Assembly: GCA_016795505.1 (NCBI GenBank)
Contig: JAEUHH010000020.1
Span: 1 to 37,360, forward strand
Reading direction: 5' to 3'
Source: Verrucomicrobiales bacterium
GTDB lineage: Bacteria; Verrucomicrobiota; Verrucomicrobiia; Verrucomicrobiales; DEV007
Length of the DNA stretch: 37,360 nucleotides
The stretch's first letter is position 1. Every line of letters begins with the position of its first letter. This document shows positions 1,452-10,505 of this stretch, in pieces. Made by a program: the position numbers and the translations under genes. Under the pieces are notes generated by a model. That model was not told where the DNA came from. It saw only the letters and a program-made list of their open reading frames with translations, and made no database searches.

Positions 1452-1486
1452 AATTGGACCACCTGAACGTCCCAGTTAAACAGACC

Positions 1487-4400
1487 ATGCCAAGAATTCT
1501 CGCCTTTCGTTCCCGCTCCCTTCCCTCTGCCCTCCACCGTCCCTCTCCTCTCCTGGAGGCTCTTGAGCCCCGCACCCTTTTCTCCGGCGCCCCGATCGAG
1601 CCCGATCCGGCTCCGGAGGCCCCGGAAAGCGCCCACGAAGCTCCCGCGGCGCTGCCGGTCGCCGAGACCACGCCGCAGACACCCGCCGCAGACGATGTGG
1701 CCACCACCGCGGCCGAATTGGTCTTCGTCTCCACCGATGTGGCCCATCCGGAAGCCCTCATCGCCGGGATCGACCAGTCGCTTGCCCACGACCGCTCCAT
1801 CGCCTTCATCCGCATTGATGCCGGGGACGACGCGTTCGCCCGCATGACCGACATTCTCAGCCAGCGCACCGACCTGACGGCCATCCACATCCTGTCCCAT
1901 GGTGTCGAGGGTGGATTCTGTCTCGGCGGCGAGTGGCTGACGTTGGACAACATCGAAAGCCACGCCGACTCTCTCGCCATCTGGGGTGCCGCCCTGCGTC
2001 CCGGCGGCGACCTGCTCATCTACGGCTGCGATACCGCCGCCAGCGCACCGGGCGCGGCTTTCGCCCAGGCTCTCGCCCGCTACACCGGCGCCGACATCGC
2101 CGCCTCAGACGATGCCACCGGCGCCATCGATCTCGACGGCGATTGGACTCTGGAACAAACCACCGGCACCATCGAAGCCTCCGTCCTCGCCGCCCCGGGC
2201 TACCGTGCGATTCTCGCCCCGGCCACCTGGAGCCTCACTGGCAGCGATTCGGTCGACGAGGGCGAGGCCGCCGTCTATCGTCTGTCCCTCGATGGCAGCA
2301 TCCCCGGCGGACAGTCGGCCTCGGTCGATCTCGCGCTCGCCGATCTCACCACCGATGCCGCCGACCATTCCGACTTCATCGAAGCCATCAAGGCCGCCAT
2401 CAAAGACCGTAGCGATCTGGCCTTCGATGGCAACACCCTGACCTACACTCCCAGCGACACCTACACCGTCACCCACGACACCCGGACCTCCGGCTTCGAG
2501 GACATCTCCCGCTCCGACGACCGCAGTCGGATCCATCTGGACGACGATGACTCCTACGGCATCGGCATTGGTTTCGATTTCACCTTCTATGGCAAGACTT
2601 ATTCCAAAGTCCACGTCGGCTCGAATGGCTTCCTGACCTTCGACCAAGGCTCCGCCGACTATACCAACGAAGACTTCTCCGCCGGCAATACCCTCGACGA
2701 CCTGCCCGCGATCGCCGTACTCTGGGATGACTGGGACCCCGACGACAGCGACAGCGATGCCATCTACTACGAGACCGTCGGTAGCGCCGGCTCCCGTCAG
2801 TTGATCGTCCAGTGGCACAAGATTGTTCGCTACCGAGGCAGCAACCCCGGCACCTTCCAGTTGGTCCTCTCCGAGGCGGACGGCAGCATTGAATTCCGCT
2901 ACAAAGACCTCACCGTCGGCAGCGGCGCCAACAGCGGCGAGTCCGCCACCATCGGACTTAGCGACGGCGGCACCCGCTACACCCAGTTTTCCTACAACGA
3001 GGACTCGGTGCGCAAGAACGAGCGCCTCATTTTCCGCCCCGACGCCGCCTCGATGACTCCCCTCGAGATCACCCTCGCCACCACCGACGACCGCACCAGC
3101 GAGTCCGGCGAGACCTTCCGCATCGAACTGGGCAAGACCACCAACAGCGCGCTGTCCAGGGAAACCGCCGTTGAGACCGTCATCGTCGACAACGATGCCT
3201 CTCCGCCCACCGCCGGCCATGACACCCTCTCCGTTCTTGAGGATGGATCCACCAGCATCCGCGTCCTCGCCAACGACAGCGCCCCCGACGGTGCCCGCCT
3301 TCGCATCACCCATGTCGATGGGCAGGCCATCACCGATGGCGGTGACGCCGTCTCCGTTGCCACCGGCAGCGTGCGCCTCGTCGGTGACGAACTGCTCTAC
3401 ACCCCCACCGCCGACTACCACGGCGCCGCTTCGTTCACCTACACCGTCAGTGACGGCATCGAGTCCGCCACGGCCATCGTCAGCGGCTCCGTCCATCGCC
3501 AGGTCGAGACCATCACCCTCACCGACGCCACCGCCGTCGAGGGCGGCACGCTCCGTTTCACCGCCACTCTCGATCGCGCCGTCGCCGGTGGTTTCACCGT
3601 CGATGTGTCCAGCCTCTCCGGCACCGCCCTGTCAGGCACCGATTTCACCCCCCTCGCCACCACCCTGCGTTTCGCCGGGCACGCTGGCGAAAGCCTCACC
3701 TTCACCGTCAGTCTAGTGGAGGATTCCCTCATCGAAGCCAACGAACAACTCACCATCGCCCTCGGTAACGTGTCCAACGGCCGCGTCTCCATCACAGACA
3801 CTGCCATCGGCACCATCACCGACAACGACGCCCGCCTCGCCCCCACCGGACCCGGCACCGGCATCACCACGGACATCGAACTCGTCGCCAACGCCACCGG
3901 CGGCTTCGATCTCATCATCGAAGACACCGGCACCGACGCCACCGACGGCTTTGCCAGCGATGCCACCGACAGCGACAGCGTGGACAATCTGCAAATCTAC
4001 CGCCTCGGAGCCGACTACGTCATCCGCGACCTCGACGGTCACTGGCTCGGCAGCCCCATCGTCGGCGCCACCCGCGTCGGCACCAGCGAGATCCGCGTCC
4101 CCGCCGCTCTCGTCACCGGCTCCATCATCATCCGCACCGGCATCGAGGATGACACCGTGACCATCGGCGACCTAGGCGCCAGCCTCGCGGGCGGTCTCAT
4201 CGTGAATACCGAGGACCCCGCCGGAGCCACCAACGACTTCGACACCATCACCTACTCCGCCCAGCTCAGCCTCGGAGCCGGATTCGGCGCCACTTTCGCC
4301 GCCGACACCATCACCGCCCGTGCCGATGCCCGCCTCGCCGCCACCGGCGGCGGCACCATCACCTGGACGGCCGGACGCAACATCCTGATGAGCGGCCGCT

Positions 4401-6025
4401 CCAGCCTCTCCACTCAGAGCGGCGACATCACGCTACGGGCCAATCTCGACGATTCCGCCGACGGCAACTTCGCCGGCATCTGGCTCAGCGGCGCCACCCT
4501 GGCCAGCACCAGCGGTGACCTCGCCCTCACCGGACGCGGCGGCGACACCGGCCACTACAACGACGGCATCCGCATCGGCACCGACAAGGCCTCCGGAGCC
4601 ACCGCCTCCCTGACCACTGGCGGCGCCATCGATCTCGTCGGCACCGGCGGCACCGCCGGCTCGCAGGGAGCCGGCATCTATCTGCTCGCCACCGCCCTTT
4701 CCACCACCGGCACCGATGCCGGCAGCGGCATCTCCCTCCACGGAACCGGCGGCACCATTGGCGGCTATGCCCATGGCGTGCGCCTCCTCGGCGGCACCAT
4801 CCAGACCGTCGCCGGCGGCATCGACCTCGACGGTCAGGCCGGCGGCAGCGGCACCACCTCGTCCAATCAGGGCGTGACCCTGTCCGGTGGCGCGCGCATC
4901 CAGGCGGGTGGCAGCGGAAATCTTACCGTCAGCGGCACCGGCGGCGGCAGCCTCGGCGGACTCAATGCCGGCGTCGTCCTCATCGACGCCCACCTCACCG
5001 TTGCCGACGGTGACCTCGCCCTCGACGGATCCGGCGGATCCGGCGCCGCTGCCAAAAATTCCCAAAACCGTGGCATCGCCACCGAGCGCGCCAGCCTGCG
5101 CAGCACCGGCAGCGGCGACATCCGCCTCGTCGGCACCGGCGATGGAGGCGGCACCAAGAGTGCCGGCATCACCCTCGTCGCCACCTCGGTCGCCGCCTCC
5201 GGCACCGGGGACATCGCCCTCAGCGGCACCGGCGCCCGCAACGGCCAGACGCTCAACCACGGCATCACCCTCGCCACCGCCACGCTTCAGACCGCCTCCG
5301 GCGATCTCCAACTCAGCGGTCAGGGCGGAGGCATCCTGCGGAAAAACAACGGCATCGACATCTCCGCCAAGTCCCAGCTCACCGCCGGCGGCAGCGGAAG
5401 CCTCCAGCTCGACGGTACCGCCGGACGCGGCGACTCGGACAATCTCGGCGTTTTCGTCGCCACCTCCCAACTCACCACCGCCCACGGTGACCTCGTCCTC
5501 ACGGGCACCGGCAGCGGCAGCCTCGATCGCAACCGCGGCGTCGCGCTCGCCAAGAGCACCCTGCGCGTCACCGGCAGCGGCGACCTTGCTGTCACGGGAA
5601 CCGGATCCACCTCCGCGGCCGGAAAAAACAACGAAGGCGTCACCATCGCCACCAGCACCCTGCGCACCTTGGGCACCGGCAGCCTGACCATCCAGGGCTA
5701 CGGCGGCACCGGTCGCGGGTTCAACCATGGCGTCTCCATCCTGTCCAGCGCCCTCACCGCCTCCGACGGCCCGCTCGCCATCACCGGACGCGCCGCTGCC
5801 ACCGCCACGGGCGTCTACAATACGGGCCTGTCCGTTCAGCAAAAGAGCACCCTCAGCGCCGGCGGGCTGCTGTCCCTGACTGGCACCGGCGGAGGCGGCA
5901 GCGGCTACAACCACGGCCTGCTCATCAACAACCGTGTCACCGCTCCCGGCGCCCTGACCACCGGCACCGCCGGATCGGGCGCCACCTCGCTCGACACCGC
6001 CGGCGATTACTTCGCCAGACGCTGA
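1487..6025 (+). CDS. LEPR-XLL / DUF4347 giant repeat surface protein with Calx-beta domains
   Basis: This 1512-residue protein is probably exported and cell-surface. I use the ATG at 1487; an in-frame TTG at 1454 overlaps the promoter region. The N-terminus carries the LEPR-XLL signature (LEPRTLFSG, residues 26-34), known from giant surface proteins of Planctomycetes and Verrucomicrobia. A DUF4347 domain follows (about 77-235, with ILSHG and YGCDTA). Next come a Calx-beta-like segment containing a nidogen-like insertion (around GFDFTFYGK), a cadherin/Ig-like domain of the 'PPTAGHDTLSVLEDGS' type, and a clear Calx-beta domain (around AVEGGTLRFTATL). From about residue 955 onward the protein consists of 25-30-residue Gly/Thr-rich coils colinear with those of the upstream gene. 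Asp-rich loops suggest calcium binding (inference). No outer-membrane barrel is seen. An adhesin or matrix role is likely; the substrate is unknown. Confidence 0.85.
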   Translation: MPRILAFRSRSLPSALHRPSPLLEALEPRTLFSGAPIEPDPAPEAPESAHEAPAALPVAETTPQTPAADDVATTAAELVFVSTDVAHPEALIAGIDQSLAHDRSIAFIRIDAGDDAFARMTDILSQRTDLTAIHILSHGVEGGFCLGGEWLTLDNIESHADSLAIWGAALRPGGDLLIYGCDTAASAPGAAFAQALARYTGADIAASDDATGAIDLDGDWTLEQTTGTIEASVLAAPGYRAILAPATWSLTGSDSVDEGEAAVYRLSLDGSIPGGQSASVDLALADLTTDAADHSDFIEAIKAAIKDRSDLAFDGNTLTYTPSDTYTVTHDTRTSGFEDISRSDDRSRIHLDDDDSYGIGIGFDFTFYGKTYSKVHVGSNGFLTFDQGSADYTNEDFSAGNTLDDLPAIAVLWDDWDPDDSDSDAIYYETVGSAGSRQLIVQWHKIVRYRGSNPGTFQLVLSEADGSIEFRYKDLTVGSGANSGESATIGLSDGGTRYTQFSYNEDSVRKNERLIFRPDAASMTPLEITLATTDDRTSESGETFRIELGKTTNSALSRETAVETVIVDNDASPPTAGHDTLSVLEDGSTSIRVLANDSAPDGARLRITHVDGQAITDGGDAVSVATGSVRLVGDELLYTPTADYHGAASFTYTVSDGIESATAIVSGSVHRQVETITLTDATAVEGGTLRFTATLDRAVAGGFTVDVSSLSGTALSGTDFTPLATTLRFAGHAGESLTFTVSLVEDSLIEANEQLTIALGNVSNGRVSITDTAIGTITDNDARLAPTGPGTGITTDIELVANATGGFDLIIEDTGTDATDGFASDATDSDSVDNLQIYRLGADYVIRDLDGHWLGSPIVGATRVGTSEIRVPAALVTGSIIIRTGIEDDTVTIGDLGASLAGGLIVNTEDPAGATNDFDTITYSAQLSLGAGFGATFAADTITARADARLAATGGGTITWTAGRNILMSGRSSLSTQSGDITLRANLDDSADGNFAGIWLSGATLASTSGDLALTGRGGDTGHYNDGIRIGTDKASGATASLTTGGAIDLVGTGGTAGSQGAGIYLLATALSTTGTDAGSGISLHGTGGTIGGYAHGVRLLGGTIQTVAGGIDLDGQAGGSGTTSSNQGVTLSGGARIQAGGSGNLTVSGTGGGSLGGLNAGVVLIDAHLTVADGDLALDGSGGSGAAAKNSQNRGIATERASLRSTGSGDIRLVGTGDGGGTKSAGITLVATSVAASGTGDIALSGTGARNGQTLNHGITLATATLQTASGDLQLSGQGGGILRKNNGIDISAKSQLTAGGSGSLQLDGTAGRGDSDNLGVFVATSQLTTAHGDLVLTGTGSGSLDRNRGVALAKSTLRVTGSGDLAVTGTGSTSAAGKNNEGVTIATSTLRTLGTGSLTIQGYGGTGRGFNHGVSILSSALTASDGPLAITGRAAATATGVYNTGLSVQQKSTLSAGGLLSLTGTGGGGSGYNHGLLINNRVTAPGALTTGTAGSGATSLDTAGDYFARR

Positions 6026-6133: not shown

Positions 6134-7870
6134 TCAGGATTCCGAGGGAGCGGATCGACTGGCGATCTGGAGGCCTTTGTCCGCGACGGCGCGAGCCGCG
6201 ACGCCCTCATCATGGACGACCACAGAGGCGCCGAGGCGCTCCAGCCGGGCCTGGTCGGACGAAAACCGCGCGCGGGCCAGGATGCACACTTCGGGATTCA
6301 ACTCACGCACATGGCGCAAGCCAGCGGCGGCGGATGACGCGTCGGGAAAGGTGAAAGCCACCAGCACAGCATCTCGCACCCGGGCCAGTTCCCAGGTCTC
6401 CTCGTGGGCGGCATCGGCGAACAGCACCGGCTGCCCATGCCGCATCAGCTCGTGGACGGTGTCGGCATTCAGCTCGATGACCAGGGTCGGCACGCCGGCG
6501 CCGAGCAGCGACTCATTGAGATGCCGTCCGACCGGGCCGTAGCCGCACAGGATGGCGTGTCCGGTGAGGGATTTGACCCGCTCGCGCATCGGGGCGGGCT
6601 GCGCGGCGCCCTTCGGCGTCTGGCGGCGGCCCCAGCCCACCCGGCCCATCCACGAGGCGACGGGATCGGCGAGCCGCATCAGGCCGGGGACGAGTGCCAT
6701 CGAGACGGTGCCGCTGGCGATGAGCGCCTGCTGCAGCTCGGCCTCCCACAGGCCCGCGGCGCCGGCTTTTTGCAACAGCAGCAGCGAGAACTCGCCCGCG
6801 CTGCACAGCGAAAAACTGCCAACCAGCGCGGCGCGATTGGTCTGGCCGAGCAGGAAGGCGATGCCGGTGATGAGCATGGCTTTCCCAGCCATGAGGATGA
6901 GGGTGAAGGCGAGAATTTCCTTCCAAGCCGGCAGGGCGACGCTGAGATCGATCATCAGGCCGACAGAGACGAAAAACAGGGTCAGGAACACGTCCTTGAT
7001 GGGCATGATGTCGGCCATGATGCGGTGTTTGTAGACCGATTCGCTGACGACCAGCCCGGCGACGAACGCGCCCAGCGCGAGGCTGAGCTGGAGCAATGCC
7101 GCGACCCACGCCAGGCCGATGCAACAGCCCACCACGGTCAGGGTGAACAATTCGCGGCTGCGGGTGCGGGCGACGGCATGGAGGAGATTGGGGAAAATCC
7201 ACCGGGCGATGACCCACGAGAGCAACACGAAGGCACCGCCCCGCCCGACCAGCCAGCCCAACTCGTGGTGGAGTGGCGCCCCGGTCGCATCTGCACTGCC
7301 GAGCAGCAGCGGCAGCACGACGAGGAAGGCAATGATGACCAGATCCTGAAAAATGGCGATCCCGAGGGCGAACCGGGCGCCGGGCGTGCCGGACAGCCCC
7401 ATGTCCTGAAAGGTTTTCAGGCTGACGGCGGTGGAACTCATCGCCAGGGCGACGCCGAGCACGATCGCCGCCGGCCAGGAAAGCCCGGAAAATTTAGCCA
7501 CCGCCATGGCCAGCACGCCGCACGCGGCCATTTGCAGGCCCCCGCCGATCAGGGAGAAGCGGCGCAGGTATTTCAGCTCGCTGATGGAAAATTCCATGCC
7601 GAGCACAAACATGAGCAGCATGACGCCGAACTCGGCCATCTGGCTGATGGCCATCTCCATGTCGCCGCCCTCGGTGCGGTCCATGAGTCCGCTGTTGGCA
7701 ATGATAATGCCGCAGATGAAATAGCCGACCAGCAGCGAGCCGCGCAGCCGCAGGAGCAGGAGCGACACCACCACGACAGCAATGAGCATGACCGCCAGCA
7801 GGGAAAAGAGCGGCGGCGCGGCGGCACCGGCAGCCAGGAGGGAGGTCAGAGGAAGGCTGATTTCGGGCAT
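6134..7870 (-). CDS. Kef-type cation:proton antiporter with C-terminal TrkA-N domain
   Basis: This 578-residue inner-membrane protein exchanges K+ (or another monovalent cation) for protons. The Na_H_exchanger (CPA2) region spans about residues 20-405, with roughly a dozen hydrophobic segments and the family motif GIAIFQD at 170-176. It is followed by a cytoplasmic Rossmann-fold TrkA-N domain starting near 438, with the nucleotide-binding GYGPVG at 443-448. This matches the KefB/KefC/YbaL layout at a normal length. A TrkA-C domain is not evident. The gene stands alone, convergent with the giant repeat protein and divergent from the porin-like gene, with 193 bases between the two start codons. 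Whether it is glutathione-gated like E. coli KefB/C cannot be told from the sequence, so no gene symbol is given. Confidence 0.88.
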   Translation of the reverse strand: MPEISLPLTSLLAAGAAAPPLFSLLAVMLIAVVVVSLLLLRLRGSLLVGYFICGIIIANSGLMDRTEGGDMEMAISQMAEFGVMLLMFVLGMEFSISELKYLRRFSLIGGGLQMAACGVLAMAVAKFSGLSWPAAIVLGVALAMSSTAVSLKTFQDMGLSGTPGARFALGIAIFQDLVIIAFLVVLPLLLGSADATGAPLHHELGWLVGRGGAFVLLSWVIARWIFPNLLHAVARTRSRELFTLTVVGCCIGLAWVAALLQLSLALGAFVAGLVVSESVYKHRIMADIMPIKDVFLTLFFVSVGLMIDLSVALPAWKEILAFTLILMAGKAMLITGIAFLLGQTNRAALVGSFSLCSAGEFSLLLLQKAGAAGLWEAELQQALIASGTVSMALVPGLMRLADPVASWMGRVGWGRRQTPKGAAQPAPMRERVKSLTGHAILCGYGPVGRHLNESLLGAGVPTLVIELNADTVHELMRHGQPVLFADAAHEETWELARVRDAVLVAFTFPDASSAAAGLRHVRELNPEVCILARARFSSDQARLERLGASVVVHDEGVAARAVADKGLQIASRSAPSES

Positions 7871-8025
7871 GCGGTGCGGTTCAGGAGCGGGCGGACCTCT
7901 ATTTCGGTCACTTTGTCCCCCATCTCAACCGCGAGGGTCGACAATTCGCGCCACGGATCGCGCAAATTCCGCGCAGACGGTCCCACGACGCCAGACCAAG
8001 CTGCGCCACGAAACGATTCAGACTC

Positions 8026-8054
8026 TTGACATCTGCAAACTATCTCGCTAAATC
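8026..8054 (+). promoter_or_regulatory. Candidate sigma70 promoter of the porin-like gene
   Basis: A perfect -35 TTGACA (8026-8031) is separated by 17 bases from a weak -10 TAAATC (8049-8054). The ATG at 8064 is only 9 bases further on, so a transcript from here would be nearly leaderless. No Shine-Dalgarno sequence precedes the ATG. Confidence 0.5.
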
Positions 8055-8063
8055 CGCATCACC

Positions 8064-9023
8064 ATGAAACGATATTCTCAACTCCTCGTATTCGGAGCCG
8101 TCGCTTTCTCGACGCTCGCCACCTAGGCCGGCGACCCCGCCGGTAAGGAAATCGTCATCGCCCCGCCGGTTGACCCGTGGGCCGATACCATCCGCCCGAT
8201 TTCCAACCCGACGCACTTCGATCTGGCCATCCCCCAGACGCAGTTGCACCCGATCTTCACCCACCAGCGGATGCCCGATGTGGTCGATACGATTCTGGGC
8301 AAAGTGCCGCTGGGCGGCGACTTCCAAGTCTACGCGGTGCAGGCCGAGATCGCGCTGAGCGAGCGCCTGTCCATCAATGCGACGAAGGACGGCTACATCG
8401 TTTTCGATCCGGAAAGCACGCTGGAAGACAGCGACGGCTGGGCGAACATCGCCGCGGGCCTGAAATACGCCTGGCTTTACGCTCCGGAAGACCGGCTGGC
8501 GTCGAACATCCAGCTCCTTTATGAAATCCCGATGGGCAATCAGGACGTGTGGCAGGGCGAAGGCGACGGCGTCTTCATCCCGTCGATCTCGACCCTGAAG
8601 CACCTCGGCGACTTCCAGTTGGCCCACCAGTTCGGCTTCAAGCTGCCGGTGGACAACGACACGGAGAGCACCATTTTCTACACCAGCGCCCACGTGAGCT
8701 ACAAGCTGACCGAATGGTTCCGCCCGCTGGTGGAAGTGAACTGGTTCAACGTGATCGACGAAGGTGACGGTGGTCCCCGCTTCGAGCCGCAACTCGGTGG
8801 CGCGCTGCCGTCGGTGATCGCCTTCGAAGCCGGTGACTTGGTCAACTGGGGTGCCAGCAATGCCGGTCTGAACCGGAATTTTGTCACCGCCGCCGCCGGT
8901 TTCCGCGTGCCGATCCCGAACAGCTCGATCGACCTCGGCTTTGCCTGGGAATTCCCGCTGACCGATCAGGACCAGGGTCTGATGGAAGACCGCTTCACCG
9001 TGGACATGGTGATCCGCTTCTGA
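8064..9023 (+). pseudogene. Outer-membrane beta-barrel (porin-like) gene interrupted by an in-frame TAG
   Basis: From the ATG at 8064 the frame reads a typical signal peptide (MKRYSQLLVFGAVAFSTLAT). It then hits TAG at 8124-8126 (codon 21) and continues open in the same frame to the TGA at 9021-9023. Without the TAG the product would be 319 residues. The mature part has alternating hydrophobic and polar strands with many aromatic residues, and ends in VIRF; the terminal Phe is a hallmark of proteins inserted by BamA. This suggests an outer-membrane channel, but I do not recognise a named family. A TTG at 8244 could restart translation but would give a product with no signal peptide. A good promoter and a strong terminator flank the gene, so it looks recently intact. 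CAG to TAG (Gln) is the simplest mutation. Readthrough, strain variation or a sequencing error are the alternatives. Confidence 0.75.
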
Positions 9024-9068
9024 TCGTTCTCGACGCCTTTTGTCTGCTTGGCGTTTTTCTGAAAAAAG

Positions 9069-9100
9069 AGGCGTCCGCCGATGAGGCGGGCGCCTTTTTT
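9069..9100. terminator. Strong bidirectional terminator between convergent genes
   Basis: AGGCG-T-CCGCC (9069-9079) pairs with GGCGG-G-CGCCT (9085-9095) around a five-base loop. T6 follows on the plus strand and an A6 run precedes it nearby. It can serve the porin-like gene on the plus strand and the HPP gene on the minus strand. Confidence 0.85.
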
Positions 9101-9118
9101 GTGGTCCGGACGGTCGGT

Positions 9119-9808
9119 TCACGGCTTTTCCGGGGGCGGACAGAGGCGGTTGACGAGCCGGACGAGATCCTCCTCCGAGATGTCGATGAAGGAGTCGAGA
9201 GAGCGGACCGCGGCGGCGATTTCGTCATGGGTCAGGGCGCGGCCGGCCACGGGAACCGGCACGGGACGGGGCGCGCGGCTGAGAATCGCAGGATAACGGC
9301 GCCAGCGGAACGGGAAATTGACCGCCACGGCCAGGATCACCATCACCAGGGCATTGAGAGCCACCGGACACCAGACGAAATCGAATCCACGGTCGCGAAT
9401 CGCCGCCCTACCGATGACTGCCGCCAGCGCCGTCGCTCCGCCGGGCGGGTGGATGCAGCGGCACTGAATCATCGCCCCGATGGCGAGCCCCACCGCGCAG
9501 GCGCCGGCGAGCGCGGTCGGCGCAATCCACCGGGCACAGGCGACCCCGATGATGGCCGACAGCACATGGCCGCCACATACCGGCCACGGCTGGGACAACG
9601 GGCCGTGAGGCACGGCAAAAAGCAGCACCGCACTGGCTCCCATCGAGGTCACGACGCTGATGACCGATGGCCCCGGGAGCGCCCAGTTCGTGATCACCAG
9701 TAGCAGTCCGATGGCCACGCCGCCGCCCAGGATGGCGACGGCTTTCTCGGCCAGACTGACTTCGATCATCTCCCAGCCGAGCCAGGCAACGAGACGTTTC
9801 AGAGACAT
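9119..9808 (-). CDS. HPP family integral membrane protein
   Basis: This 229-residue protein contains the family signature CIHPPGGATAL in a run of about four to five transmembrane helices, followed by a cytoplasmic C-terminal tail of roughly 60 residues. Some HPP proteins in plastids and cyanobacteria have been linked to nitrite transport. That function cannot be assumed here. The C-terminal CBS domains found in some bacterial members are absent. The gene lies 82 bases downstream of the YHS-globin gene on the same strand and may be co-transcribed with it. That would pair a candidate nitrogen-oxide transporter with a periplasmic globin (inference). Confidence 0.85.
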   Translation of the reverse strand: MSLKRLVAWLGWEMIEVSLAEKAVAILGGGVAIGLLLVITNWALPGPSVISVVTSMGASAVLLFAVPHGPLSQPWPVCGGHVLSAIIGVACARWIAPTALAGACAVGLAIGAMIQCRCIHPPGGATALAAVIGRAAIRDRGFDFVWCPVALNALVMVILAVAVNFPFRWRRYPAILSRAPRPVPVPVAGRALTHDEIAAAVRSLDSFIDISEEDLVRLVNRLCPPPEKP

Positions 9809-9890
9809 GGAAGGGTGAAGACGATCCGGAAAAGCGCCCGCCGCCCACGGAGACGGGCTCCGCGGCGACGGACGGATGAACGGGCAAAAG

Positions 9891-10505
9891 TCACTGAGCC
9901 GGTTTGGCCGCCGGCTTCCGATTGAGCACGTCGTCGCGGGTGCTGCCGGCGATGGCCATGACCTGATCGATCAACTCCTTGGGCACCTTGAGCTCCTCCA
10001 GAGTTTTCTGGAGATTCTCGGCGACGGCATTGAAGTGCGTGTCATTCAGGTCGGGCAGATTTTGATGGGCGGTGCGCATGTCCTTGCCCGTCCACGGCTC
10101 GGGACCGCCGAAGGCCGCGGAGAGGAATTCCTTCTGCTTGTTGTGCTGGCGGCGCATGTTCACGTCGTCGAAGAAGTGCTTGATGCGATCATCGGCGAGG
10201 ACTTTCACGTAGAAGGCATCCACCGCCGCATTGATGGCGGCCTTGCCTCCCAGCTTGTGGTAGAGGCTGTTTTCGCGGTCTTTCTGGAATTGCGCGCGGC
10301 AGGCCTCATCGGCGAACGCGTAGGTCTTGCCTTCGTAGGCGTAGGTGATTTTGGGATCGACCGGCTTTTTGGAAATGGGGCAGACTTGGTTGATCTCGGT
10401 GGCCGGCTTGGCACCGGCGGGATCGGCCGCCCGCAGAGTCGGAGAGGTCAGAGAACCGGCAAGGGCCAGGGTGAATGCGGTGGTCAGGATGACAGTGGAC
10501 TTCAT
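9891..10505 (-). CDS. Exported YHS-domain / group I truncated haemoglobin fusion
   Basis: This 204-residue protein starts with a signal peptide (about 1-26, ending LRA-ADP). A short YHS domain follows (about 40-79), with Cys42 in VCPISKKPVD and Cys69 in FADEACRAQF. A truncated-haemoglobin domain then spans about 80-195: it begins YHKLGG, has the B-helix FY pair at 98-99, and carries a probable proximal haem histidine His147 in DMRTAHQNL. YHS domains are small modules associated with metal binding. TrHbI globins bind haem and commonly react with NO or O2. Combining them in one exported polypeptide suggests a periplasmic haem protein for NO/O2 chemistry or metal handling (inference). The HPP gene lies directly downstream. 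Alternatively the YHS part may only be a folding or docking module. Confidence 0.85.
   Translation of the reverse strand: MKSTVILTTAFTLALAGSLTSPTLRAADPAGAKPATEINQVCPISKKPVDPKITYAYEGKTYAFADEACRAQFQKDRENSLYHKLGGKAAINAAVDAFYVKVLADDRIKHFFDDVNMRRQHNKQKEFLSAAFGGPEPWTGKDMRTAHQNLPDLNDTHFNAVAENLQKTLEELKVPKELIDQVMAIAGSTRDDVLNRKPAAKPAQ

Follow-up and report, generated by a model that had tools for sequence, protein, structure and literature searches.

An amber codon at the predicted signal-peptide cut of an otherwise intact outer-membrane channel gene in a Verrucomicrobiales bacterium: a probable recent nonsense allele

The window (the whole stretch of 37,360 nucleotides analysed here) contains the reading frame of a putative outer-membrane channel, running from ATG 8064 to TGA 9021–9023 and carrying one in-frame TAG as codon 21 (Table 1). 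The original prediction, made from the letters of this DNA, had placed the stop at 8124–8126, and it is truly present in the assembly, within a frame that is otherwise open. Codons 22–319 contain no stop and the protein ends in MVIRF, which, with a structural model of about 12 strands, bears out the complete barrel ending in Phe that had been described. The use of ATG 8064 as the start is supported because similar signal peptides begin at the same place in three relatives of the same genus (G001, G002, and G003). The signal-peptidase cut was placed by the A-x-A rule. The signal peptides of relatives end in A-G-(D/E) or A-G-x and the TAG stands in for the residue preceding this Ala; the stop would accordingly occupy position −2 of the predicted cut.

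Table 1. Features of the channel gene and its immediate flanks, in window coordinates
Feature	Position	Strand	Basis
Promoter-like pair TTGACA-N17-TAAATC, 9 nt before ATG	8026..8054	+	direct reading; similar in G002 and G003, not in G001
Signal peptide, codons 1–20, up to residue −3 of the predicted signal-peptidase I cut (MKRYSQLLVFGAVAFSTLAT)	8064..8123	+	translation and relatives
In-frame TAG, codon 21, residue −2 of the predicted cut (T-stop-A/GD, the slash marking the cut)	8124..8126	+	direct reading and relatives
Codons 22–319: final signal-peptide residue and intact mature barrel, about 12 predicted strands, COG4313/FapF fold, ending in Phe	8127..9020	+	
TGA, the normal stop of the gene	9021..9023	+	direct reading
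Intrinsic terminator, 10-bp G+C-rich stem 9070–9079/9085–9094, 5-nt loop, T6	9070..9100	+	direct reading

The regulatory signals around the frame differ in quality. The promoter had been called good, and a TTGACR-N17-TA hexamer pair is indeed kept in G002 and G003, where it lies 10 nt before the ATG; however, the pair is absent from G001, it is only moderate in the window given its second hexamer TAAATC, and a consensus promoter scan did not report it. If the pair is used, its distance of 9–10 nt from the ATG implies that the mRNA may be leaderless or nearly so. The strong terminator was confirmed by direct reading, as a 10-bp stem followed by six T, while the terminator scan listed only a shorter version of it, with a count of 2 that is not clearly above shuffled sequences (mean 1.2, sd 1.2).

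Upstream of the channel gene lies a divergent gene for a Kef-like antiporter, related to KefB/KefC and scoring below the NCBIfam cut-offs. An HPP-family membrane protein and a bacterial-globin protein, the latter also with a sub-threshold YHS match, are encoded at 9119–10505, between the barrel gene and an acetyltransferase gene; in G001, G002, and G003 the acetyltransferase gene directly follows the barrel gene. Kef-like antiporter and acetyltransferase genes adjoin the orthologue in these three genomes, and both neighbours were found at 4 of the 16 loci examined, one of which is a second record of G001 and all of which have short flanks. Further upstream, positions 1454–6025 encode a repeat-rich protein of 1523 aa with DUF4347, Calx-beta, cadherin-like, and nidogen-like domains, preceded at 1–1287 by a frame with similar glycine-rich repeats.

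The channel gene is single-copy, one copy having been found in the genome. The window protein itself matched 0 Pfam and 0 NCBIfam families. Among the 26 aligned orthologues, 15 matched PF13557 (Phenol_MetA_deg; E up to 0.1, best 2e-10), a family that presumably overlaps with COG4313, and 12 matched PF13505 (E up to 0.1). The AlphaFold2 model, built from the 26-sequence alignment, has a mean pLDDT of 84.4 and a pTM of 0.83 and shows a barrel with about 12 long strands. Its top VIA-align match is the COG4313 channel 4rl8_C (Z 22.4, 2.6 Å over 235 residues, 11% identity), followed by FapF 5o65_C (Z 22.1, 2.9 Å over 234 residues), and the best Foldseek hits are likewise FapF and 4rl8. The product is thus likely an outer-membrane channel, assigned to the COG4313/FapF-type barrels by its predicted fold, and it probably works like one of these channels.

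The comparison with the characterized members of this group shows both likeness and difference. COG4313 channels (Pput2725, PDB 4rl8; SphA; TcpY) are defined as 12-stranded monomeric β-barrels with the N-terminus in the barrel lumen (PMC4493636). The modelled window protein resembles them in its approximately 12-stranded barrel, yet it is only 11% identical to Pput2725. In the latter the lumen is filled by 14 residues at the N-terminus (PMC4493636), whereas about 37 residues precede strand 1 in the window protein. A mostly confident and conserved segment (approximately residues 11–37) precedes strand 1 in the model, and model residues from 29 onwards align to 4rl8_C residues from 1. FapF, the amyloid-secretion channel of Pseudomonas (PDB 5o65, 5o67, and 5o68), shares the barrel fold at 11% identity, but no fap gene was found among the identified flanking genes (Kef-like antiporter, HPP protein, globin, and acetyltransferase).

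The comparison of orthologues suggested along with the original prediction was carried out at the stop itself. All six aligned orthologues have a sense codon there: AAC in G001, CAA in G002, ACC in G003, CAT in G015, AGT in L032, and CAG in L033. The column is variable, with N, Q, T, H, S, and Q in these six and other residues in further orthologues, and no stop was found at this column in the other orthologues whose N-terminus was read (the window locus L002 and the masked L115 set aside). It had been proposed that a change of CAG to TAG fits; this is possible, but not more, since the six orthologues differ at the column and do not fix the ancestral codon.

The remainder of the gene bears the marks of a selected frame. 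The window gene is 84% identical to its orthologue in G001, 81% in G002, 66% in G003, and 78% in G015, and the signal peptides of all four are open; a disabled frame with intact orthologues, the situation of a single-nonsense pseudogene, is therefore what was found with respect to these four genomes. The dN/dS values of the window gene, obtained at dS of 0.79–1.45 and so partly saturated, are 0.096 against G001, 0.175 against G002, 0.336 against G003, 0.105 against G015, 0.197 against L032, and 0.192 against L033, and lie within or just below the range of 0.107–0.339 seen in the 15 comparisons between intact genes. Of the 137 columns on which the other six sequences are unanimous, the window gene departs at 1, which is tied for the lowest of the seven; the same count for the others gives 1/137, 2/138, 20/156, 6/142, 1/137, and 10/146. 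With one departure, the neutral changes accumulated since the end of selection would number no more than about 0.015 per nonsynonymous site (a rough 95% upper bound, assuming about 2.25 nonsynonymous sites per codon). Because the rest of the gene is undamaged by both measures, the alignment indicates that the TAG is either very recent or absent from the population altogether.

One of the mechanisms by which an undamaged frame might coexist with an internal TAG is decoding of the TAG as a sense codon, through suppression or read-through, with the channel being made at some level. The fully conserved downstream frame would be expected in this case, and the variable column within a cleaved signal peptide means that any inserted residue might be tolerated. 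However, the genome offers little to sustain it, and the reading is left with a slim chance. In the original prediction it stood next to the observation that TAG is never a genuine stop in the window, which is true there (20 TGA, 2 TAA, and 0 TAG among 22 crude calls, at least one of which looks antisense) but does not extend to the genome. In a crude codon-usage prediction over 40 stretches and the window (784 kb of 6.55 Mb, with two C118 stretches overlapping by about 5 kb that was counted twice), 493 gene ends were called, comprising 410 TGA, 43 TAG, and 40 TAA. The probability of seeing no TAG in 22 calls by chance is 0.13. Zero TAG stops in a single window of a TGA-rich, high-G+C genome should not, as a matter of general caution, be taken to suggest recoding. 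The three stops are followed by coding-like sequence about equally often (TAG 10 of 43, TAA 10 of 40, and TGA 79 of 410), so TAG does not appear to be specially read through. Several orthologues of the channel gene themselves end in TAG (L007, L008, L010, and L011 among others).

The decoding machinery agrees with the stop census. PF00472 has three matches in the genome, two of which are RF1 and RF2 over the NCBIfam cut-offs. A change of the genetic code was rejected on the presence of RF1 and the use of TAG as a stop. The suggested search for a tRNA with a CUA anticodon gave nothing: ARAGORN found no tRNA in the window, and CUA was absent from the 58 genome tRNA matches read, 56 by ARAGORN (run on 73 loci of this genome) and two from the sequence. 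The underlying genome search is non-exhaustive: cmscan found at least two array tRNAs that it had not returned. A tRNA cluster on contig C73 was considered as a possible source of a suppressor; CUA was also absent from the anticodons readable there by ARAGORN or by eye, where at least one degenerate element (approximately L089:10180–10255) is unreadable. A tRNA-Leu listed as "tag" was rejected as an amber suppressor; its anticodon is UAG and it reads CUA codons. The model of pyrrolysyl-tRNA synthetase (TIGR02367) has two matches, the better at 36.3 bits against a cut-off of 178.15. The suppressed or recoded codon that had been offered as an explanation is thus unsupported. A related proposal, slimmer still, is that the amber codon serves as a translational throttle, with low or conditional read-through by a near-cognate tRNA or under reduced RF1 activity, and that little channel is made; the inserted residue would then leave with the signal peptide and the mature channel would be unaltered.

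The position of the stop at the cleavage site had also been taken as a hint of phase-like on/off variation, that is, switching of the surface channel by a reversible change at codon 21. Outer-membrane barrels are a usual target of phase variation, and the product is predicted to be one. However, the region 7870–9120 holds only two two-copy direct repeats (12–17 nt, copies 291 and 730 nt apart) and only two imperfect inverted repeats (12–14 nt, arms 938 and 316 nt apart). No run of one-to-three-base units was seen at codon 21 by eye, the repeat tool not covering such runs. With no slippage tract or close inverted repeats in this region, and with sense codons in the orthologues, switching has hardly any probability left. 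Restart downstream of the stop was considered as well. The next in-frame start after the TAG is TTG 8244, and a product begun there was rejected as a substitute, as it would be without the signal peptide and the conserved DPWADTIRPISNPTHFDLA segment.

A match to the gene was found in 151 of 386 genomes of the order, which is why it is regarded as patchily distributed and dispensable. Among the 150 matches listed, the window's included and the signal peptides not covered, one has an internal stop. It belongs to G023, of another genus, whose orthologue (L012, C144:279–1154) has a single in-frame TGA where its congener G030 has Trp and is intact otherwise. In G089, G280, and G352 only C-terminal parts match, inside longer contigs, and no further part of the gene was found nearby; truncation or divergence would account for this. 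In G366 (C78) a short frame is cut by the contig end, and in G370 and G196 the match extends over nearly the full length. The channel gene is open to loss, yet among the matches listed a single nonsense change is an uncommon route to it. Recurrent nonsense loss under phage pressure was rejected on the same count, which shows no pattern. In the DnaB control over the same 386 genomes, internal stops occurred in the listed matches more often than for the barrel gene; these matches reach the end of dnaB and may include its own stop, so that no rate was drawn from them. No relative was found in viral contigs.

A further issue is whether the stop exists in the cells at all. It may be a consensus artefact, arising from a sequencing, polishing, or strain-mixture error or from the choice of a minority allele, with a working gene in most cells. 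This was the second of the three explanations originally offered, and it is the main rival: unlikely, though far from negligible. In its favour are the fragmented state of the assembly, with 120 contigs, and the lack of relaxed selection in the rest of the gene; an error of this kind would produce just one isolated stop. On the other hand, substitution errors are rare in well-covered assemblies. The contig also fits its genome, as its DnaB shares 83–85% identity with the DnaB of G001, G002, and G003, the three relatives of the same genus. A crude split-frame scan of the same 784 kb flagged 8 candidates downstream and 11 upstream, with the channel gene itself among the latter. The other 18 are weak, many look antisense or intergenic by eye, and the scan yields no assembly error rate.

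Of the three explanations, the fresh nonsense mutation is the best supported, because the sequence downstream of codon 21 is undamaged throughout and shows the same conservation as functional orthologues. A probability of about 0.7 is given to recent loss of function, by a nonsense allele, of an outer-membrane channel gene that is single-copy and patchily distributed, and next to nothing is reserved for readings other than those discussed. It is proposed that a very recent single change turned codon 21 into a stop. RF1 would terminate translation there, the product would end after 20 residues of the signal peptide, and the channel would not be made. The allele would be fixed, or at least in the majority, in the assembled population, as represented by one assembly. 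The loss of the channel may be tolerated or favoured, for example if the channel serves as a phage receptor or in an uptake that is not needed. Two findings count against the nonsense allele: the undamaged frame would equally fit a sequencing or strain-mixture artefact, and the rarity of internal stops in relatives suggests that the gene is not often lost by a single nonsense change. The locus resembles other single-nonsense pseudogenes of outer-membrane proteins, with one stop in an otherwise intact and recently selected frame; its only distinctive point is that the stop falls at the signal-peptide cut. As found, it matters little, being a broken or variant copy of an ordinary outer-membrane channel gene. 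If a stop/sense polymorphism existed, the locus would be a minor example of natural channel variation, possibly under phage pressure.

A separate observation was made on contig C73 of the same genome, where L089:9100–11350 holds a dense array of tRNA genes on one strand. It comprises 15 tRNA matches over the Rfam cut-off and one weaker; ARAGORN called 13 tRNAs, and some members have by eye odd T-loops, e.g., AGCGTTA. A frame from about 11602, near the array, looks like an HNH endonuclease. In a search of 19 genomes, DNA matches to the array recurred as clusters in G003 (C64), G006 (C38), G011 (C102), G012 (C156), and G037 (C48). Arrays of tRNA genes are described in mycobacteria, where one abstract names a putative role for them as an antidefense system (PMC12803027; PMC5966550). 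In this order, tRNA arrays with odd T-loops could merit attention.
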